NCBI GenBank assembly: GCA_947306745.1
Contig: CAMZHH010000009.1
Coordinates: 1 to 37,397, forward strand
Source: an uncultured Candidatus Saccharibacteria bacterium
Lineage (GTDB): Bacteria > Patescibacteriota > Saccharimonadia > Saccharimonadales > Saccharimonadaceae
DNA length: 37,397 nucleotides
Direction of reading: 5' to 3'
The position numbers and the translations under genes were made by a program. The notes beneath the pieces are model-generated. The model did no database searches. It was not told where the DNA came from and saw only the letters and a program-made list of their open reading frames with translations. Each line of letters begins with the position of its first letter. Position 1 is the stretch's first letter. Below, one piece after another: positions 7,968 through 19,136 of the stretch.

Positions 7968-9329
7968 ATGAATAATAATGACGCGTCTAATAAGGACGAA
8001 AAAAGCTTTGGCAAAAGCGATTCATTTGAACATATGATCGCCATGCAGGAGCAGATTTTTAATCCGCCTATGGAAGAAACGACTGACACACCTGTCACCG
8101 ATTTTAGCTCTTTTGGCGGTGATAAAACTACTAATGTAAATGACCTCTCAAAGCGCAGTGGCGGCGAACCGGAAAAGGAAGAGGAAGAAAAGAAGGAAGA
8201 GGAAGAGGAAGAAAAAGAAGACGACTACGTGGATAGCCGTAGCGAAGAAGAGATGCATTCCCTCTTTTCTGATCCTAGTGCCGGAACCACGCAGGACGTA
8301 GATCCAGAAGAAAAGAAACTCCTCGACGAAGAACGTCGCGAACGCGAATTCTTCCATCAAGAAGACCTTTCAGTTACCATTCCACCACGCGAAGAAAAAC
8401 CAGAAGAATCAGTCACTCCAGCCTCTGAGGAGAAAAAAGAAGAAGCCCCAGCGTCTGCTGAGGAGCATCACGATGAGGCTCCAACTGAGGAACACCATAA
8501 TGAAGAGCATCACGATGAGACTCCAGCAGAAGAACATCATGATGAAGAATCTCATGACGAAGAGAATCATGAGGAAGAACATCACGAAGAAGAGTCTCAT
8601 GACGAAGAGCACCATGATGAGACTCCAGCAGAAGAACACCATGAAGAAGAATCTCATGATGAGGAACATCATGACGAAGCTCCATCTGAGGAACATCATG
8701 ATGAAGAGCATCACGATGAAGAAGCTCACGATGAAGAACATCACGATGAGGCTCCAGTAGAAGAACATCACGAAGAAGAATCTCATGATGAAGAATCTCA
8801 TGATGAAGAATCTCACGACGAAGAGCGCCATGAGGAAACCCCAACTGAGGGGCACTATGATGGAGAACATCACGATGAAGCTCCAGTAGAAGAGCATCAT
8901 GATGAAGAGTATCATGAGGAAACCCCAACTGAGGAGCACTATGATGAAGAGAATCATGACGAGGAACATCACGAAGATGAATCTCATGATGAGGAACATC
9001 ACGATGAGGCTCCAGTAGAAGAACATCACGACGAAGAGCATCATGAGGAAGAACATCATGATGAAGAGCCGGTCGTCGCACTTGCGCCAGCGGAAGAAAA
9101 TAAACCAGAAGAGGAAAATATGCATGACACTATTCGCAAACGCCTAGAACATCTTCGCGTTGAACGTAATATCTTAATTGTAGATATCGATAAGTTGGAG
9201 GATGCCCTCTTCGACGAGAATAATCCAAACTTCGCGACCGCTAAGGATCAAATCAAAGAGAAGCGCCATGAATTACATCACAAGAATGAAGCAATTGCTG
9301 GTATGCTCGACCTATTACATACGCTTTAA
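7968..9329 (+). CDS. Asp/Glu/His-rich repeat protein with C-terminal coiled coil
   Basis: The 453-residue protein is almost entirely low complexity. Residues 1-60 are Ser/Asn/Asp-rich and 65-90 form a Glu/Lys block. About 165-367 is a degenerate five-residue repeat of the form x-His-Asp/Glu-Glu-Glu with x often His or Ser, punctuated by Ala/Thr-Pro-x-Glu-Glu blocks. The last 70 residues or so (from MHDTIRKRLEHLR) look like an ordinary helical coiled coil. There is no signal peptide or membrane segment, so it should be cytosolic. The repeats would be disordered and strongly acidic at neutral pH, and paired histidines every fifth residue could bind divalent metal (inference). A GGGTGAG site precedes the ATG and a clean terminator follows. 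I know no named family for it. It is not a random open frame, since the repeat translates cleanly to the stop. Confidence 0.85.
   Translation: MNNNDASNKDEKSFGKSDSFEHMIAMQEQIFNPPMEETTDTPVTDFSSFGGDKTTNVNDLSKRSGGEPEKEEEEKKEEEEEEKEDDYVDSRSEEEMHSLFSDPSAGTTQDVDPEEKKLLDEERREREFFHQEDLSVTIPPREEKPEESVTPASEEKKEEAPASAEEHHDEAPTEEHHNEEHHDETPAEEHHDEESHDEENHEEEHHEEESHDEEHHDETPAEEHHEEESHDEEHHDEAPSEEHHDEEHHDEEAHDEEHHDEAPVEEHHEEESHDEESHDEESHDEERHEETPTEGHYDGEHHDEAPVEEHHDEEYHEETPTEEHYDEENHDEEHHEDESHDEEHHDEAPVEEHHDEEHHEEEHHDEEPVVALAPAEENKPEEENMHDTIRKRLEHLRVERNILIVDIDKLEDALFDENNPNFATAKDQIKEKRHELHHKNEAIAGMLDLLHTL
8460..9070 (+). repeat. Degenerate 15-bp coding minisatellite
   Basis: Variants of a 15-bp unit (such as GAAGAGCATCACGAT) are repeated about forty times. 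They encode pentapeptides around His-His-Asp-Glu-Glu. Units vary mostly at third positions, so the array is old or under coding selection. Such arrays can change copy number by slippage. Confidence 0.9.
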
Positions 9330-10119: not shown

Positions 10120-10149
10120 GCCCAATCGATCAAGATTGGGCATTTTTTT
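10120..10149 (+). terminator. Terminator overlapping the end of the convergent SGNH gene
   Basis: GCCCAATC (10120-10127) pairs with GATTGGGC (10134-10141), and a T7 run follows on the plus strand. The stem covers the stop codon of the minus-strand SGNH gene, which has no good T-run of its own here. Confidence 0.8.
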
Positions 10150-11002
10150 CGATTGCAATACGGCGCAAACCGTAGATGATATAGATTAAAAATGATGCGC
10201 CTAGAATAATCCAAAGTACAAAGCTATAATCCGCCGACGCCGGCGTAGACTTCTCGGCCGCTTTCTGTTGGGTGGCCATTTTTGCATCTGCCGTTTCTTG
10301 AATGAAAGCCGCAAGGTGCTCGGCTAAAGCCTTCTGACCATCAGCATTCGGATGAAGATGGTCGGAGGTAAAATATTCTGGATGCTCGTAAAGCACGTCC
10401 TCAAGATGGTCGATATAGGTAATTCCATCATAACTCTCAACAACTTGGCGCAAAGTTAAAAGTACACGGTCGAGGTTTTCCTGAGCATTTTCGTCAGTCG
10501 TATTCCAAGCATTAAAACCTACTAGAATCTCGGCGTTCGGAAAATTTTCGTGCGCCCGCGCAAAGAGTTCAGCACTATAACTCACGATGTCCTCGTCGCT
10601 GTCTGGATGATCATTGTAGCCACCCGCGATTACGACCCACTCGATACTATTCGGATCTTCGGCTTTATCTTTAGCCTGATTAACTAGATCAATAAAGCGC
10701 ACACCCTCATTAACATGCACGAAACCCGTGCCACCCTTGCAGCTAACAATATAATTCTCGAGCGACAGTAGCTTGGCAGTCACCTCCGCCCACGCCTCAT
10801 CATAATTTGAGCCGACGATATCATTTATGAAAGCACCTTCGCAGTACGAGTCGCCAATAAATACGACATTGTCCACCTTAGCATGTATAACCTCGGATGC
10901 GTCATCGTTCTTTTGCGGCACTAAATCACTGGTAGCAAAAGTATACCCCATCATCGAGAATGCGAGTAAAAAGCTGCAAAAAATGGCAATAATCTTACGC
11001 AT
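10130..11002 (-). CDS. Secreted or membrane-anchored SGNH/GDSL hydrolase
   Basis: This 290-residue protein has an N-terminal signal peptide (hydrophobic residues 4-22, basic MRK start), an SGNH hydrolase domain and a C-terminal transmembrane helix (about 258-280) with a short basic tail. Block I is IGDSYCEG with the nucleophile Ser52, the oxyanion Asn is in GGYND (130), and the Asp/His pair is in DHLHP (214 and 217), so the triad is complete. Such enzymes deacylate sugars, lipids or peptidoglycan. The outside location suggests action on the cell's own envelope or on its host's surface. The domain matches family expectations but the substrate cannot be read. TATAAT ends 7 nt before the ATG, and the GAGGA between them could serve as a ribosome binding site, so the leader is very short or absent. 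The stop codon is TGA. Confidence 0.88.
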   Translation of the reverse strand: MRKIIAIFCSFLLAFSMMGYTFATSDLVPQKNDDASEVIHAKVDNVVFIGDSYCEGAFINDIVGSNYDEAWAEVTAKLLSLENYIVSCKGGTGFVHVNEGVRFIDLVNQAKDKAEDPNSIEWVVIAGGYNDHPDSDEDIVSYSAELFARAHENFPNAEILVGFNAWNTTDENAQENLDRVLLTLRQVVESYDGITYIDHLEDVLYEHPEYFTSDHLHPNADGQKALAEHLAAFIQETADAKMATQQKAAEKSTPASADYSFVLWIILGASFLIYIIYGLRRIAIEKNAQS

Positions 11003-11059: not shown

Positions 11060-11088
11060 TTGCAAATTAACTCAAAATAGCCTATGAT
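11060..11088 (+). promoter_or_regulatory. Promoter of the structured RNA
   Basis: TTGCAA (11060-11065), a 17-nt spacer and TATGAT (11083-11088) predict a start at about 11095. No convincing gene follows for 500 nt. Confidence 0.75.
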
Positions 11089-11094
11089 ATGAAC

Positions 11095-11531
11095 AGATTC
11101 GCCAATAACACCCGAATGCCAAGTGAACCTTCGCGGGTTCCAAATGCTGAGTGGGCGAATTGTTCCCTTTGAGATACTGTGGTAGTTTTGGTCTCCTGTG
11201 TGTATACCCGCTAAAATCACACACCTCCCCCGTGGCAACGGGATGAACCAGAAAGAACAACAAGTTTCAATAACGGAAGCAAGAAGTCAAGACATAAAAG
11301 ACATCAGAGTTTGCGGCAGGAATCATCGCCGCTAGTCAAGAAACACCGAACTTTTATCAATCAGGACTCCAAGCTCCACAGTATCTCTTTTATGAAGCAA
11401 GTTACTTCGCCCATTCGTCGCGCGTTTTGCCAGACGCTCTCACCTAACCAACCTTTCGAACGAGAATTGGTCCTGCGATGTGGACGAAGATAACTTTACC
11501 GGCCCCCGACGACGTTCGGGGGCCACTTTTT
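11095..11531 (+). ncRNA. Candidate structured non-coding RNA, about 440 nt
   Basis: The segment is bounded by a good promoter and a strong terminator and has no credible coding frame in either direction. Complementary arms are abundant. A 5' stem-loop is 11096-11103/11154-11161, enclosing GAACC/GGTTC at 11125-11129/11136-11140. A perfect 12-bp long-range helix joins 11171-11182 and 11376-11387 and continues through TTGG/CCAA and TCC/GGA. Inside it are GTGTGT/ACACAC (11198-11203/11219-11224), CCCGT-GGCA-ACGGG (11229-11242) and GCGGC/GCCGC (11313-11317/11328-11332). The 3' part has GCGT/ACGC and ACCAA/TTGGT hairpins. I looked for hallmarks of tmRNA (tRNA-like ends, tag peptide), RNase P RNA (P4 motifs, 5'-3' closing helix) and SRP RNA and found none. 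The region could still be a divergent known RNA. Confidence 0.7.
11501..11531 (+). terminator. Strong terminator of the structured RNA
   Basis: GGCCCCCGA (11501-11509) pairs with TCGGGGGCC (11516-11524), followed by AC and a T5 run. The minus strand lacks a T-run, so it acts on the plus strand. Confidence 0.88.
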
Positions 11532-11709
11532 ATTGTCTCGTTATTTGCTTTTTTATTGTGCATATGCTTAAATTTAAGTAGTGAAGTGTGGCTGATAAAA
11601 CGATAATGTTTGAGGCCGAAGGTGAAAATAAATACTAGGAGGTTAACGAAAAGGAGTCGCCTACAGAGGCTAGTGGCATTTTTTTGCACTCTTAATAATT
11701 AGCGCAAGC

Positions 11710-12396
11710 TTGTTTATTATTTTTAAACCAAGTAGCGCCGTTCCGTTAGCTGAGATTAATCCAGATGATTGGAAACTTGAATTACTATTTTTTGATTCCG
11801 AAGTAAACAAAGGCAAAGATCCAATTGTCGATGAAAAATGGATTATTGAAGAATCGAGCAAACTTGATCGTTTTAGTCGCACCGTCACGATGCAGATTAA
11901 TTACAAGAATGAAACGATGGATCGAACTTATGAACCTGGCGAATTACAAATCGTGGTTCCAAATCCATTAAACGCTGCGAAGATAAAAGATCAAAATATG
12001 ACCGTATCGACTACAGTCGGCGCCAATGGGGTAAGTTATAATTCCTACTTCTGGGACTATAACTATCAAAATTACAACACAAGTAACTTCGTATTTACTA
12101 ATCATGACGCACTCGAGGAAAGCGCGAACGTTGAAGGCAGTATCCAAGTCGTCTATGTTATTAGCTCTAGTACTGAGTACTACGCTGAACAATTCGATGG
12201 TAGCTGCACACACGTCGTTGGCGAGGATAATATGAAGGCCGTCCTAAACTCCTCCGCCGAAAGTAACGCGGCGAGCTTTGAATATAGTCGCGTGTATAAC
12301 CATCCATGGACAAAAGCAAATTATCGTATTAATACTTCCGTATATAAAATCCAGTCATACGATGGCCTAGGCGAAAATGCCGATCAATACACCTAG
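11710..12396 (+). CDS. Surface adhesin, first fragment up to the in-frame TAG
   Basis: The longest intact piece of the adhesin's beginning opens at a TTG and runs 228 residues to TAG. The true frame entry is probably upstream across the T7 run, because the residues just before and after the TTG form the hydrophobic core of a signal peptide and no ribosome binding site precedes the TTG. The rest is a Tyr/Asn/Ser-rich beta-type sequence (YNYQNYNTSNF, SSSTEYY) as expected of an extracellular domain. No named domain is recognised. The codons directly after the TAG (VRYYYYGAS) continue the same style, so the stop looks recent or suppressible. Confidence 0.6.
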   Translation: MFIIFKPSSAVPLAEINPDDWKLELLFFDSEVNKGKDPIVDEKWIIEESSKLDRFSRTVTMQINYKNETMDRTYEPGELQIVVPNPLNAAKIKDQNMTVSTTVGANGVSYNSYFWDYNYQNYNTSNFVFTNHDALEESANVEGSIQVVYVISSSTEYYAEQFDGSCTHVVGEDNMKAVLNSSAESNAASFEYSRVYNHPWTKANYRINTSVYKIQSYDGLGENADQYT

Positions 12397-12510
12397 GTAA
12401 GATACTATTATTACGGAGCTTCAACCTCAAACTCTAGCATCTCCTACTCTACAAGGGTATATAATAATACTTCCCTTAACCAACAATTTATTGGCCTATC
12501 AGAATTCCGC

Positions 12511-12960
12511 GTGGATACTGTTTTTCCTGAAGGCATAAAAGTTGTTAATAGAGCTGGTACCGTTTTGGAACACGATGAAAACTACGTATATAACATGCCG
12601 GATTCCGCAAAGGTCAGTTGCGGTTCTTATAATACTTGCTACGACATCTACGTCGGCTATCCTAAAAGCGTCTACAATACCGAAGCTGGCACGAATAATA
12701 TTACTAACCTCATACAACTTGACGGAGTTTACGCATCTGAGACCGATGAGGGTACATTGGCTACAAATACGGTCAGCTTGGATTTAAGTAAATATGAGTT
12801 CAACTATACAGGAAATGCGGTTAGCATTGGTAAATACTTTACTGGTGCCACTGTACCAAATACCTACGGAAATGGCCTGTATTACTATGATTTAATATCT
12901 TCCCCTACTGGCCAAACGGGTTTTTTAGTAATAACTTCACAGTTCGATACGAAGGCATAA
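12511..12960 (+). CDS. Surface adhesin, middle fragment
   Basis: These 149 residues continue the frame of the first fragment; reading is open from 12397, directly after the TAG. They are rich in Tyr, Asn, Thr and Gly and have two Cys (VSCGSYNTCYD). The fragment ends in TAA 31 nt after the T TTT TTA heptamer where the downstream coding frame takes over. The ATG at 12511 has no ribosome binding site, so independent translation is unlikely. Confidence 0.5.
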   Translation: MDTVFPEGIKVVNRAGTVLEHDENYVYNMPDSAKVSCGSYNTCYDIYVGYPKSVYNTEAGTNNITNLIQLDGVYASETDEGTLATNTVSLDLSKYEFNYTGNAVSIGKYFTGATVPNTYGNGLYYYDLISSPTGQTGFLVITSQFDTKA

Positions 12961-12974
12961 AACAAACCGTCCGC

Positions 12975-15209
12975 ATGGGTGACGATTTGCTCTACTACAT
13001 GAATAATGACACTGGCGCAACACAACAATTGCCCGATAATGATTACTATTTTGAATCGATCACAATACCTGTATTAAAAAATGGAAACTCTCTTGATATT
13101 CCAACAAATAAATACAGCTATTCTGTATACGTACGCTATCGCAATGAAAATGACTTTGTAAAATTCGGAGACTACACAACAACAAATAGAACTATATCTT
13201 TTACGGGCGAAAAGCAAGTCCAGGCCTGGTACATAGATTTGTTTGATTTAACTGATAGTATTAATGGATTATCCATTAGTACCAAGGTTACTCTAAAATC
13301 TACATCTTTGCCGGTTAATGGAACGCTATACAATTTCAATTACGTACAAGTTTTCCAGAACGGCGAACGCGTAAACGAAGCAACACTTGATAATTATGCT
13401 GAAGGAATTACGCGCGAACATGTTTCGGAATACGATTTACGTAATTACGGCGAATATCAACAGCGTTCAGTGGCGAATACTACTTGGAAAGTATATAGCG
13501 TACCTGCGATTCGACACATTGAAAGAGTAGGAAAAGCTCAGGCTACTACCCCTTCCTATAAGCCAGCAGAAGAAGCGTTCGTCGGAAGTTTCTATATAAG
13601 TGCTTCTAGCGCCGATTTTACGTTTGGTTCAGTATCCGATTGGGGTCTAATTAAAGACAAGATACCTGATTCCGGCATGAATCATTTTGTAAAACTTTAC
13701 GACCTGCTTCCATTAGGCATGCTTCCAGATTCTACACCAAAAGAAATAATCAATTCACTTAATGTATGTCCGACTGGAGATACTTATAGGCAAAAGAATG
13801 GCGCAAGCCTGTTCTCGTCTTCTGATGAATGCCAATCGTTCGTAAAAGAACATACTACTGTAAAAATTACAAAGAACTGGCACAATACTGGACGTTGGCA
13901 TATAGCGATTATTGTAGACTTTTCCGAGCGGCCATTTACCACCTACAACGCCTCGCACGGCAATACGAATGCATATAATGTATATACTCCGCTCCGTTTT
14001 ACAGTAAAGTATCGCATACCTTATGATTCTTACGCTGAATATGGTAGATCATTCAAAAATACCGCTTGGCGAGTAATGGAGCATAATACTAATAACAACC
14101 ATAAATACGATAACGATAATGGGACTTTAGATTCAGATGTGGTAGATATAGACGATAACGGCAAGTCGGATGAGCAAATGAGTACGTCCGATTTAACTAT
14201 TAATTTAGTTTCGGTAACATCTACTACTCAAGATTTACAAGTCTCCGTGCTAACCGATCATAGTGGCACATATGAAGTCGATGACGTCTTGGGTGGATTC
14301 GGCGAAGATTACGTTTATAAACTTCGCTTACGCACTGGCAATAATAAGGTTACGAATGCTGTGTTGTATGACCATATCGAAGAAAAGCATACAGGTAATA
14401 CTTATTGGCAAGGTAATTTTGACGGCATCGATACGAGCTATGCGGAATCGAAATTAGATTACTATGATCAGCCGATTAAGATTAAGGCATATTGGTCACC
14501 AAAACCAGACGCAGGTCCCCTTTCTAACGACAATAGCTGGGTTGAATATGACGAAGAAACGGTCGACAAGTCGAAAGTTCGCTCTTTAGCTTTTCAATAT
14601 CTAGACCAAAATGATCAACCAGCATTATTAATGCAATCTAGTTACTCTTATATATTGGTAAAAATGAAAGCGCCATCAGAGGAAGACATTAGCTCATTCG
14701 CCTACAATAATTTACATAGCGAATGGAATGCCATCGATAATCTTACGGGTGATGTTATCTATAATATCGTAGGCATCGAGTCGAATACTACACGCGTGTA
14801 TCTGTCCGACAAATACAACTTAACAGTAAAGAAAGTCTGGGACGACTATGATGATTACTACAAAATAAGACCAGAAACCATAACCTTTAATTTGTATTAC
14901 GATGGCGAAATCGTTGATACTAAGACTCTAGATGTATCGAATAGCGAATCGGAAGTGGTGTTTGAAAATCTATCCGTTTTAGACCAGGACAAATATCTAC
15001 TCGAAGAAGTAGAAGTAGATGGCTATAAAACTTCGATTTCACAAGATCCACAAACACTAGCCTACACGTTCACTAACAGTGTGCTCAGGGCGGCACCAGT
15101 AGAATTAAACCCTCAAACAGGCGATAATATTCTCATATCTATTGTATGTATCAGTGGACTACTATTAGTTGGCTTCAGTGCAGCCTATTTCGCTCGCATG
15201 CGTCGTTAA
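12975..15209 (+). CDS. Surface adhesin, C-terminal part with Cna-B domain and sortase signal
   Basis: This 744-residue fragment carries most of the mature adhesin. The coding frame is open upstream to the heptamer at 12921 and reads sensibly there (FSNNFTVRYEGIKQTVR), so the ATG at 12975 is only the first methionine and not a convincing start. A DIDDNGKSDE loop at about 393-402 resembles a calcium-binding EF-hand or dockerin loop. Residues 615-703 form a Cna-B type domain (LTVKKVWDD at its start, YTFTNS at its end), a fold that often makes an internal Lys-Asn isopeptide bond. LNPQTG at about 711-716 is followed by a hydrophobic helix and RMRR, the layout of a sortase substrate. NPQT resembles class B sortase motifs more than LPXTG. 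No sortase gene is in this window. Confidence 0.8.
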   Translation: MGDDLLYYMNNDTGATQQLPDNDYYFESITIPVLKNGNSLDIPTNKYSYSVYVRYRNENDFVKFGDYTTTNRTISFTGEKQVQAWYIDLFDLTDSINGLSISTKVTLKSTSLPVNGTLYNFNYVQVFQNGERVNEATLDNYAEGITREHVSEYDLRNYGEYQQRSVANTTWKVYSVPAIRHIERVGKAQATTPSYKPAEEAFVGSFYISASSADFTFGSVSDWGLIKDKIPDSGMNHFVKLYDLLPLGMLPDSTPKEIINSLNVCPTGDTYRQKNGASLFSSSDECQSFVKEHTTVKITKNWHNTGRWHIAIIVDFSERPFTTYNASHGNTNAYNVYTPLRFTVKYRIPYDSYAEYGRSFKNTAWRVMEHNTNNNHKYDNDNGTLDSDVVDIDDNGKSDEQMSTSDLTINLVSVTSTTQDLQVSVLTDHSGTYEVDDVLGGFGEDYVYKLRLRTGNNKVTNAVLYDHIEEKHTGNTYWQGNFDGIDTSYAESKLDYYDQPIKIKAYWSPKPDAGPLSNDNSWVEYDEETVDKSKVRSLAFQYLDQNDQPALLMQSSYSYILVKMKAPSEEDISSFAYNNLHSEWNAIDNLTGDVIYNIVGIESNTTRVYLSDKYNLTVKKVWDDYDDYYKIRPETITFNLYYDGEIVDTKTLDVSNSESEVVFENLSVLDQDKYLLEEVEVDGYKTSISQDPQTLAYTFTNSVLRAAPVELNPQTGDNILISIVCISGLLLVGFSAAYFARMRR

Positions 15210-15355: not shown

Positions 15356-17113
15356 ATGTTTAAACTTTTAAAAAATTTATATAAAAAAGATTATATCTTT
15401 ATCGCTTTAGCAATTCTATTTATCGCTGGCCAGGTTGGCCTCGAATTAAAGATGCCGGAATACATGTCCGAGATCACTAAGCTCGTACAGACCGAAGGTA
15501 GCGCAATGGAAGATATCTTGCGCAACGGTGGCATGATGCTGCTCTGCGCTTTAGGTAGTTTAATTTCGACCATTATCGCAGGTTATTTTGTATCGTATGT
15601 CGGCGCCGACTTCTCATTCATTACTCGTAAAAAGATTTTCGATAAGGTTGAAAGTCTCAGTTTAAATGAGGTCAAAAAGTTTTCGACTTCTTCCCTGATT
15701 ACGCGCACTACAAACGATATCACTCAAGCTCGCATGTTAATTACAATGGGCGCGAATATGTTAGTGCGCGCGCCGATGAGCGCAGTTTGGGCGATTGTAA
15801 AAATTCATGGTAAAAGCTGGGAGTGGAGTACCGCTACCGCTATCGCAGTCATTATTCTACTCGCGACAGTTATTACTACGATGATGATTGTAATTCCGCG
15901 CTTCAAGATTATTCAGAAATTGACCGATAAACTCAACAGCGTTACGCGCGAAAATCTCACCGGTATCCGCGTCGTACGAGCATTTAATGCCGAGAAATAT
16001 CAGGAGCACAAATTCGACAAGAGCAACACCGAGCTCGCCGATATTAACCGTTTCGTCGATCGCGTATTGAGTGTAATGTCACCAATGATGTATCTAGTCA
16101 TGAACGGTATTACTTTGACGATTTATGTAATTGGTGCATATCTGATTGGTAACTCAATGATGGCCAACAAACTAACCGTCTTTAGCGATATGGTCGTCTT
16201 CTCTTCTTATGCAATGCACGTAATTATGAGCTTCTTGATGGTAGCAATGATTTTCATGATGATTCCACGCGCGCAAGTTTCTGCCGAGCGTATCAATGAA
16301 GTGCTCGAAGAAGAAATCACGATTACCGATGGTGACTTTGATGACGAAACGGCCGAAAAAGGTACCGTTGAATTTCGCAATGTATCTTTCAAATATCCCG
16401 ATGCCGAAGAATATCTACTTCGCAATATTTCATTTAAAGCCGAAAAGGGCCAAACGGTCGCTTTTATCGGTTCGACTGGTTCTGGTAAGTCTACCTTGAT
16501 TAATCTAGTACCGCGTTTCTATGACGCAACTGACGGCGAAGTCTTTATCGATGGCGTAAATGTTAAAGATTACAAGCAAAAAGCACTACGTCGTAAACTA
16601 GGTTATATTCCACAAAAGGCCGTAATTTTTAGTGGCACCGTTGCAAGTAATATTTCTTATGGTGACAGTGGTAACGGTAAGCCGAGCGAGCGTCAAATTC
16701 AAACTGCCGCCAAAGTTGCGCAAGCCAAGAATTTCATCGAAAAGCTTGATAAGCAATATAATTCACATGTTGCGCAATCTGGTACTAACTTATCTGGTGG
16801 CCAGAAGCAGCGTCTAGCCATCGCCCGTGCGATTGCGCGCAATCCGGAAATCTATATTTTCGATGATAGCTTCTCGGCACTCGACTATAAAACTGACGCC
16901 GCCTTGCGCCAGGCTCTAAAAGATTACACCAAGGACGCTACGAGCCTAATCGTCGCTCAGCGCATTGGTACCATCATGCACGCCGATCAGATTATTGTAC
17001 TCGATAAGGGCGAATGTGTTGGATATGGTACACATAAAGAACTAATGAAGAATTGCGAGGTTTATAAAGAAATTGCACTCTCGCAGTTAACGAAGGAGGA
17101 GCTCAATGTTTAA
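15356..17113 (+). CDS. Heterodimeric ABC exporter subunit, BmrC-like, degenerate ATP site
   Basis: This 585-residue half-transporter has six membrane helices (about residues 15-310) followed by an ATPase domain: Walker A GSTGSGKST at about 372-380, signature LSGGQKQR at about 479, and Walker B IYIFDDSFSALD at about 500. The residue after the Walker B Asp is Asp, not the catalytic Glu, the mark of the degenerate site in heterodimeric multidrug exporters such as BmrCD, LmrCD and TM287/288. The next gene overlaps by 8 nt and supplies a canonical Glu. Together they should export drugs, lipids or peptides. The ATG has no close ribosome binding site; GGGAGA lies about 22 nt upstream. Its length matches what I recall for B. 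subtilis BmrC. Confidence 0.92.
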   Translation: MFKLLKNLYKKDYIFIALAILFIAGQVGLELKMPEYMSEITKLVQTEGSAMEDILRNGGMMLLCALGSLISTIIAGYFVSYVGADFSFITRKKIFDKVESLSLNEVKKFSTSSLITRTTNDITQARMLITMGANMLVRAPMSAVWAIVKIHGKSWEWSTATAIAVIILLATVITTMMIVIPRFKIIQKLTDKLNSVTRENLTGIRVVRAFNAEKYQEHKFDKSNTELADINRFVDRVLSVMSPMMYLVMNGITLTIYVIGAYLIGNSMMANKLTVFSDMVVFSSYAMHVIMSFLMVAMIFMMIPRAQVSAERINEVLEEEITITDGDFDDETAEKGTVEFRNVSFKYPDAEEYLLRNISFKAEKGQTVAFIGSTGSGKSTLINLVPRFYDATDGEVFIDGVNVKDYKQKALRRKLGYIPQKAVIFSGTVASNISYGDSGNGKPSERQIQTAAKVAQAKNFIEKLDKQYNSHVAQSGTNLSGGQKQRLAIARAIARNPEIYIFDDSFSALDYKTDAALRQALKDYTKDATSLIVAQRIGTIMHADQIIVLDKGECVGYGTHKELMKNCEVYKEIALSQLTKEELNV

Positions 17114-19136
17114 CGGTGGCGGCCACGGCGGTCGTGGCAAAGATATGGGCAAAGCCAAGGATTTTGGCAAGTCTATCAAGCGCATGTTGAGCGAAATGAA
17201 GGGCTTCTATGTCGCAATTGTTTTTGCAATCTTCCTTTCAGTTGGTGGCTCGATTTTATCGGTCGTAGCACCAGATATCTTAGCGCAAATTACCGACGAA
17301 ATTTCAGCCGGTATCATGATAGATAATGAGAAAATGGCCAACATCTTCTCGGAAGTCATGAAAGATCCGATGAACGAAAGCGTTATTGACGGCCAGACGA
17401 TTACCGTTGAGGACAAAATGGAGCTCGCTAAGCTCTCTAATGAGTATGTCAATAAAGCCTATGAATCGAACGGCGACAACCGCGCCGCAATTGCGACGCA
17501 ACTTTATGCCGCGATTGATAAGATGCCAGAATCGGTTCAAAACTTAATTCGCCCGCAAATGAATTATGAAGCGATTAGCGTATTGGCATTCACGATGATT
17601 TGTTTATACCTAGCCTCCGCTTTTCTCGAATTTCTCGAAGGTTGGGTGATGGCACGTGTTACATCTGGTTTTGCGCGCAATTTACGCAATCGCATTTCGC
17701 ACAAGATTAACAAGTTACCATTAAAGTATTTTGATAAGCATCAAATCGGCGACGTCTTGTCGCGCGTCACAAACGATGTAGACTCGGTCGCAAGTAGCCT
17801 TGATAACTCTTTCGGTACCATTATCGGCGAAGGATCATTGTTGCTCGGCGCCGTCGTAATGATGTTCTGGACGAACTGGATTTTAGCGCTAGTCGCAATC
17901 GTCTCTAGCTTGCTCGGCTTCATCTTCGTAGCTATTATCCTATCCAAGTCGCAGAAATATTTTACTGATCGTCAGGTCGAGCTAGGCAACATGAACTCAC
18001 ACATCGAGGAGGTTTATTCTGGTATCGCGGTTGTTAAAGCCTATGATGGCAAATCTACCGCCGATCAGAAATTCGATCGCATCAATAAGAAAATCCACAC
18101 TGCCAACCAACGTAGCCAATTCCTCTCTGGCATGATGCACCCATTCATGGCCTTCGTGGGTAACTTTGGTTACGTAGCAGTCTGTGTAACCGGCGCACTT
18201 CTCACGATGAACGGCGCAATTAGCTTTGGTATTATCGTGGCATTTATCTCTTATGTACGTTTATTCTCTTCACCACTTTCCCGCATCGCACAGGCGATTG
18301 GTGGTTTACAGCCAGCCGCCGCTTCAAGCGAGCGTGTATTTGAATTTATCGACGAAGAAGAGATGCCGAGCGAACGTGGCCTAACTGCGCATATCGACAA
18401 AGATAACGTCCGCGGCGATATTGAATTCGACCATGTAAAGTTTGGTTATAGCGACGAGAAATTAACTATTAAGGATTTTTCAGCCAAAGCCAAAGCTGGC
18501 CAAAAAATCGCAATCGTCGGCCCAACTGGCGCTGGTAAGACTACCATGGTGAACTTATTGATGAAGTTCTATGATATTAAATCTGGCGATATTCGTATTG
18601 ATGGTAAGTCCACCAAAGAAATGACACGTGAAGAAATCCATTCCCTATTCACGATGGTATTACAGGATACCTGGATGTTTAGTGGTACCGTGCGCGATAA
18701 CATCGTTTATAATCATCCAAACGTCACCGACAAAGAAGTTATGAAGGTTTGCGATACAGTGGGTCTTAGCCACTTTATTAAAACTTTACCGAAAGGTCTA
18801 AAAACCGAGGTGACGGAAAGCGATTCGATTTCCGCTGGTCAGAAACAGCTAATTACGATTGCACGCGGCATGATCGAAGACGCACCTTTCTTAATTCTCG
18901 ACGAGGCAACTTCGAATGTCGATACGCGTACCGAGGAGTTAGTCCAGAAAGCGATGGATAAATTAATGGAAGGTCGCACTTCATTTATCATTGCGCACCG
19001 CCTATCGACCATTAAGAATGCCGATTTAATCCTCGTAATGAACGAAGGTAATATCATTGAGACTGGTAACCATAAGGAATTAATGGCGCAGGGCGGCTTC
19101 TACGCTGATTTGTATAATTCACAGTTTGCGCTCTAG
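17106..19136 (+). CDS. Heterodimeric ABC exporter subunit, BmrD-like
   Basis: This 676-residue partner of the preceding half-transporter starts behind AAGGAGGAG and overlaps it by 8 nt. Walker A is GPTGAGKTT (about 472-480), the signature is ISAGQKQL (about 575) instead of LSGGQ, and Walker B is LILDEATSNVD with the catalytic Glu (about 601). In a dimer, its altered signature faces the Asp-bearing site of the partner, so one ATP site is doubly degenerate and the other intact. Between the first two helices (about residues 60-150) lies an acidic stretch of some 90 residues, which should form an extracellular domain, as described for BmrD. The N-terminus is Gly/Lys-rich (GGGHGGRGK). A terminator follows the stop directly. 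The transported substrate is unknown. Confidence 0.92.
   Translation: MFNGGGHGGRGKDMGKAKDFGKSIKRMLSEMKGFYVAIVFAIFLSVGGSILSVVAPDILAQITDEISAGIMIDNEKMANIFSEVMKDPMNESVIDGQTITVEDKMELAKLSNEYVNKAYESNGDNRAAIATQLYAAIDKMPESVQNLIRPQMNYEAISVLAFTMICLYLASAFLEFLEGWVMARVTSGFARNLRNRISHKINKLPLKYFDKHQIGDVLSRVTNDVDSVASSLDNSFGTIIGEGSLLLGAVVMMFWTNWILALVAIVSSLLGFIFVAIILSKSQKYFTDRQVELGNMNSHIEEVYSGIAVVKAYDGKSTADQKFDRINKKIHTANQRSQFLSGMMHPFMAFVGNFGYVAVCVTGALLTMNGAISFGIIVAFISYVRLFSSPLSRIAQAIGGLQPAAASSERVFEFIDEEEMPSERGLTAHIDKDNVRGDIEFDHVKFGYSDEKLTIKDFSAKAKAGQKIAIVGPTGAGKTTMVNLLMKFYDIKSGDIRIDGKSTKEMTREEIHSLFTMVLQDTWMFSGTVRDNIVYNHPNVTDKEVMKVCDTVGLSHFIKTLPKGLKTEVTESDSISAGQKQLITIARGMIEDAPFLILDEATSNVDTRTEELVQKAMDKLMEGRTSFIIAHRLSTIKNADLILVMNEGNIIETGNHKELMAQGGFYADLYNSQFAL

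Follow-up and report, generated by a model that had tools for sequence, protein, structure and literature searches.

Alphaproteobacterial small RNAs of the alpha-r14/NfeR1 type, the "cuckoo" sRNAs, carry redundant anti-Shine-Dalgarno (anti-SD) motifs on stems that differ in sequence and mask translation initiation regions; they are defined by three hairpins that all expose the same CCUCCUCCC (PMC10746234). In Bacillus subtilis, the exporter genes bmrCD are controlled by bmrB through ribosome-mediated attenuation (PMC4191407). Here we analyzed a segment of a 37,397-nt stretch of Saccharibacteria DNA (hereafter, the window) that the original prediction had put forward as a candidate new structured RNA. 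The RNA is indeed structured and has no match in Rfam, but it did not turn out to be isolated, being one of a genus-wide set of fast-evolving RNA genes.

The segment consists of about 435 nt, with a promoter at 11060-11088 on one side and a terminator at 11501-11524, followed by T5, on the other, and from the sequence we infer a transcript start at ~11095. Both elements had been predicted to surround a segment without a credible gene, in agreement with our finding that no ORF in 11093-11531 exceeds 63 aa or has a Pfam match; an 81-aa ORF on the minus strand reaches into this interval from the downstream side. Taken by themselves, the scans of the window for promoters (2 found, 1.6 expected) and terminators (1 found, 0.8 expected) were not significant. 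Both elements are nevertheless conserved in G044, another species of this genus. As read from the sequence, the anatomy of the segment is that of an independent transcription unit. Its features are as follows.

11060..11088, + strand: promoter TTGCAA-N17-TATGAT, with GCTTGCAAATT and TATGATAT conserved in G044
11095..11531, + strand: predicted structured RNA gene of about 435 nt, with a syntenic homolog showing compensatory changes and without an Rfam match
11097..11160, + strand: 5' domain D1, a predicted hairpin closed by ATTCGCC/GGCGAAT; present in the MFE fold of both species, one U-A to U-G change
11171..11182, + strand: P2a, 5' strand; 6 of 12 pairs doubly compensated, 0 broken
11188..11191, + strand: P2b, 5' strand TTGG, partner 11369-11372; 2 of 4 pairs doubly compensated
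11195..11198, + strand: P2c, 5' strand CCTG, partner 11362-11365; 4 of 4 pairs doubly compensated
11203..11210, + strand: conserved motif TATACCCG, identical in G044; TATACC/TATACCC enriched across units
11220..11228, + strand: anti-SD-like CACACCTCC, predicted mostly unpaired (0.76); ATCACA..ACCTC kept in G044, enrichment family-wide
11229..11242, + strand: predicted hairpin P4, CCCGT-GGCA-ACGGG; 3 of 5 pairs doubly compensated
11313..11332, + strand: predicted hairpin P5, GCGGC...GCCGC; 3 of 5 pairs doubly compensated
11362..11365, + strand: P2c, 3' strand CAGG; 4 of 4 pairs doubly compensated
11369..11372, + strand: P2b, 3' strand CCAA; 2 of 4 pairs doubly compensated
11376..11387, + strand: P2a, 3' strand; 6 of 12 pairs doubly compensated, 0 broken
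11405..11489, + strand: 3' domain D3, predicted outer stem CTTCGCCCA/TGGACGAAG; covariance model R1, 1 double change
11422-11437 and 11447-11471, + strand: two predicted inner hairpins within D3
11501..11531, + strand: intrinsic terminator, a 9-bp stem (11501-11524) and T5; 1 double compensation relative to G044

In the predicted architecture, the 5' hairpin D1 is followed by an interrupted long-range helix (P2a-P2b-P2c), which would enclose two hairpins and a single-stranded core, and then by D3 and the terminator. The perfect 12-bp long-range helix of the original prediction is exact (11171-11182 with 11376-11387), and it continues in register through the two further short helices, which are 4-bp extensions: TTGG/CCAA (11188-11191/11369-11372) and CCTG/CAGG (11195-11198/11362-11365). 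The original prediction held such complementarity to be unlikely by chance; perfect inverted repeats of at least 12 bp with arms 100-300 nt apart number 18 in 924 kb of the same genome, this is the sole one in the window, and its pairing is compensated in G044. The fold z-score of the segment relative to shuffles was -3.70 with the terminator and -2.65 without it. We also observed an alternative perfect 8-bp helix, 11152-11159/11406-11413 (TGGGCGAA/TTCGCCCA), that competes with the D1 and D3 stems. The stem strands of these two domains resemble each other, and G044 can form the alternative 8-bp helix with two G-U pairs; a conformational switch through this predicted helix is possible.

To place the segment among known RNAs, we searched it against the Rfam covariance models, and no family matched; at E 10 there were just two chance matches. 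The claim that it lacks marks of tmRNA, RNase P RNA and SRP RNA was confirmed with the individual models. The tmRNA model (RF00023) had no match in the window, and the tmRNA of this genome lies at C22:3472-3838; RNase P RNA (RF00010) was not found at the segment and lies at C32:101-454 (245.9 bits); SRP RNA (RF00169) and 6S RNA (RF00013) had no match in the window or elsewhere in the genome. The SRP apical motif GNAA..AGCAGC was absent from the segment, and none was found in the assembly. Both tmRNA and RNase P RNA were detected in the G000 genome; the failure to detect SRP RNA and 6S RNA there may reflect divergence or the 10% of the assembly that is missing. In principle, the segment could belong to one of the known classes (tmRNA, RNase P, SRP or 6S) and have diverged to an extreme degree, as the missing SRP and 6S matches would allow. 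This is highly improbable, given that tmRNA and RNase P RNA sit elsewhere, that even at E 10 Rfam yielded only the two chance matches, that the assembly has no SRP apical motif, and that one to five copies with extreme variability do not fit such a class.

Searches by sequence were equally negative. For the segment, blastn in genus, order and phage collections gave chance matches only; a match of 19 nt, lying antisense to gatA in three of the relatives, was dismissed as chance because the RNA of G044 does not have it. Exact-pattern scans of genome and viral collections returned no match for the P2 helix, and for a D3 motif they returned the G044 species and three unrelated chance matches only. 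No further copies were found in the same genome, and literature searches, covering open-licence papers, turned up no description of such a locus. The RNA is previously uncatalogued, and sequence-based RNA searches (Rfam, blastn) miss the locus completely.

The homolog in G044 was reached through the divergent GDSL neighbor of the window RNA. It is located between the GDSL gene and the ABC exporter gene, the same place as in the window, and an identical unit is present in the public Saccharibacteria MAG record CAMZJD010000001.1. The G044 unit has the promoter TTGCAA-N17-TATGAT, the D1 hairpin ATTCGCC/GGCGGAT, the long-range helix GAGGTGTCATGC/GCATGACACCTC, the motif TATACCCG, the 3' domain and the terminator; much of its other sequence differs from that of the window. 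Direct comparison of the window RNA rests on these two independent sequences, window and G044, which were aligned manually, one helix strand after another, using linkers that were neutral or taken from the consensus; over 63 pairs it contains 20 double changes with pairing kept, 1 one-sided change, 41 unchanged pairs and 1 broken pair, a C-A mismatch in the window. The registers of P4 and P5 were chosen and could lean towards pairing, whereas those of P2 were dictated by sequence. Compensatory changes in relatives, which the original prediction had proposed to look for in the named helices, are present in P2a, where all 12 pairs are kept (6 by double change), and in P2b and P2c, where pairing persists although 6 of the 8 pairs are doubly changed. 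None of 500 shuffles approached the observed compensation, and sliding the 3' partners by 1-3 columns left at most 2 double changes. Covariance model R1, built for D3 and run over 295 family genomes, matched in the window and G044 only.

These results also bear on the notion that the segment is a product of chance or decay, a gene remnant with accidental complementarity. A broken adhesin lies next door, and neither the promoter scan nor the terminator scan, taken alone, departs far from expectation, as such a remnant would have it. However, the covariation in the two aligned sequences, with 20 double compensations and a single one-sided change, already contradicts it, and the syntenic homolog has its promoter and terminator intact, so that we consider a remnant hardly credible. 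Overall, the comparison demonstrates that the predicted RNA fold has been maintained by evolution, and the segment is almost certainly a genuine structured RNA gene.

The genes surrounding the RNA in the window are the following.

10130..11002, - strand: GDSL lipase gene (Pfam PF13472), divergent neighbor, adjoining the RNA in G044 too
11622..15209, + strand: interrupted Cna_B adhesin between the RNA and the ABC pair, absent from the G044 locus
15356..19136, + strand: two-gene ABC exporter pair, syntenic in the genus and the conserved landmark of the RNA locus

The adjacency of the RNA to the interrupted adhesin, part of the original description, is real in the window, where the exporter is 3.8 kb away from the RNA. 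The adhesin is nevertheless incidental, because the G044 RNA directly precedes the ABC exporter. The adhesin has a sortase-type C-terminus (NPQTG) and is broken by a T7 homopolymer frameshift in the signal peptide (11679-11685), an in-frame stop (12394-12396) and a frame change at ~12960; the homopolymer could represent phase variation or a sequencing error. Elsewhere in the window, 7968-9329 encodes a 453-aa protein with long low-complexity EEHHDEE repeats and no Pfam match. Two palindrome-rich elements in G000 (C15:8645-9135 and C15:18857-19311, L207), about 80% identical over 280 nt and ~10 kb apart, contain TTAACGTTA repeats and a 16-bp inverted repeat and are possibly ends of a mobile element.

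With the exporter pair as landmark, noncoding promoter-terminator units were found directly upstream of it in 26 of 40 other genomes of the genus. The pair is BmrCD-like, and each locus holds 1-5 units of about 160-400 nt (four in L079, four or five in L081), with unit borders in relatives set by consensus scan; some units follow immediately on the terminator of the unit before, and for these the scan detected no promoter (e.g., G022_395, G028_400 and G029_403). Most units cannot be aligned with one another. Their fold z-scores relative to shuffles nevertheless average -2.9 over 39 units (27 below -2), and many have a 10-14 bp long-range helix, the helix sequences being unrelated between units. 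Clusters of related units, such as G002_379/G020_425 and G012_566/G034_590, show compensation in these helices. The units may all share a common ancestry, or the slot may simply gather RNAs. In five genomes (G007, G040, G003, G023 and G030), the slot encodes a short peptide instead of RNA units; at L059, L060, L061, L062 and L064 the peptide is 43-45 aa long (MKKRYIVVGAVAAVAAFIAASLYAIGFILADEDFYDEDYSEYE), with a strong Shine-Dalgarno sequence, a membrane segment and an acidic tail. A second genus (g27) had no RNA units ahead of the ABC gene.

The position upstream of an exporter raises the possibility of a leader acting in cis by ribosome-mediated attenuation, as bmrB of B. subtilis does, in which antibiotic stalling on a short leader ORF would cause read-through into the exporter (or, in the window, into the adhesin). 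The downstream gene is of the same kind as bmrCD (PMC4191407), and G044 has a GAGGTG Shine-Dalgarno sequence and an ATG within P2, opening a 38-aa ORF. The window has a GTG at the same place (MVVLVSCVYTR, compared with MLLLVSAVRYTR in G044), and the leader codons of the two, read by eye, differ mostly at first and third positions. On the other hand, the window ORF lacks a good Shine-Dalgarno sequence and stops after 11 codons, and no small ORF is common to the units; one shared leader peptide was rejected as weak and not general. Furthermore, a promoter-like sequence separates the last terminator from the start of the ABC gene in 20 of 26 genomes, several units can form a tandem array, each under a promoter of its own, and the exporter of the window is distant. 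D3 is separate from the terminator, which leaves no evident antiterminator; the translated leader ORF overlapping a terminator or antiterminator that marks the bmrB type was not found. We consider attenuation unlikely.

A different function is suggested by word composition. The most enriched words in the 39 units are substrings of the 16S rRNA 3' tail (GGATCACCTCCTTTCT): ACCTCC occurs in 14 of 39 units (1.9 expected) and its complement in none, and CTCCTTT occurs in 13 (1.1 expected). The enrichment is strand-specific: any 7-mer of the tail is found in 25 of 39 units and its reverse complement in 3, and CTCCTT is present in 18 units, AAGGAG in 0. On the negative side, across units the anti-SD motifs are only slightly less paired than average (0.53 versus 0.43 unpaired), and in G044 one such motif falls inside P2. 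Taken together, the strand bias of the anti-SD words, the tandem arrangement and the presence of independent promoters suggest RNAs that act in trans by masking initiation regions, and, from sequence and by analogy, the units are most likely regulatory RNAs masking ribosome-binding sites. In the proposed mechanism, the window RNA and its sister units would act in trans: their stems would present CCUCC-type anti-SD segments, which would base-pair with mRNA targets at their Shine-Dalgarno region and keep translation from starting, and sequence outside the short motifs would drift freely provided that pairing is kept. A scan of the same genome for target duplexes gave candidates only, with C1:29613-29948 an example of a candidate initiation region, and we put the anti-SD mechanism forward tentatively.

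The same mimicry of the 16S tail could instead serve a structural or protein-binding RNA, a scaffold or oligomer like OLE, ROOL or GOLLD or a ribosome-associated RNA, that binds the ribosome or a protein rather than mRNA. The size, the long-range helix, the several hairpins, and a fold that is strongly conserved while the sequence is weakly so would all suit such a role. It is nonetheless rather improbable: known ornate RNAs retain much sequence, which the units do not, Rfam gave no match, and no partner protein gene is consistently linked except the ABC pair. As a whole, the picture that explains the data best, and that we hold to be nearly evenly balanced, is a structured RNA gene of a genus-wide locus that would act in trans through anti-SD segments.

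As a provisional description, this would be a dedicated hypervariable RNA locus of one Saccharibacteria genus, with 1-5 autonomous RNA genes of common architecture, mostly unalignable between species because of fast sequence turnover and most of them mimicking the 16S rRNA 3' tail. If true, it would represent a system of RNA regulation that is specific to this lineage, diversifies rapidly and resembles no family catalogued so far. Keeping fold and ribosome-tail mimic while replacing sequence, it would show the evolution of structured RNA under relaxed sequence constraint. Epibionts with small genomes are generally regarded as having little regulation, and the regulatory RNA of Saccharibacteria appears almost uncharted; the locus supplies concrete, easily tested RNA genes for bacteria whose gene control offers few points of entry.

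Among described RNAs, type I toxin mRNAs such as hok are about 440 nt long with long-range pairing; the window RNA resembles them in both respects but has no hydrophobic toxin ORF. The units share with OLE, ROOL and GOLLD (PMC12286853) the character of long, highly structured, autonomous, lineage-restricted bacterial RNAs; they differ in being shorter, in having no Rfam match and in a sequence that is not conserved among units. Like the bmrB leader (PMC4191407), they are terminated RNAs ahead of a two-gene multidrug ABC exporter; in contrast to it, they stand several in tandem, usually with an independent promoter after the terminator, have no shared leader ORF, and keep the terminator separate from the other helices. 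The cuckoo sRNAs alpha-r14/NfeR1 (PMC10746234) are likewise autonomous genes with CCUCC-type anti-SD motifs on divergent stems, and more than one motif per RNA occurs in some units too. The window RNA has no sequence or fold in common with them; it is far longer, its long-range helix is interrupted, its 3' domain stands apart, and the units lie in tandem at one locus before an ABC exporter, with candidate targets only. Membership in the cuckoo family was rejected: the window RNA lacks CCUCCUCCC and has just one CACACCUCC, located between hairpins. Though not a member, the window RNA may, by analogy, work as the cuckoo sRNAs do.
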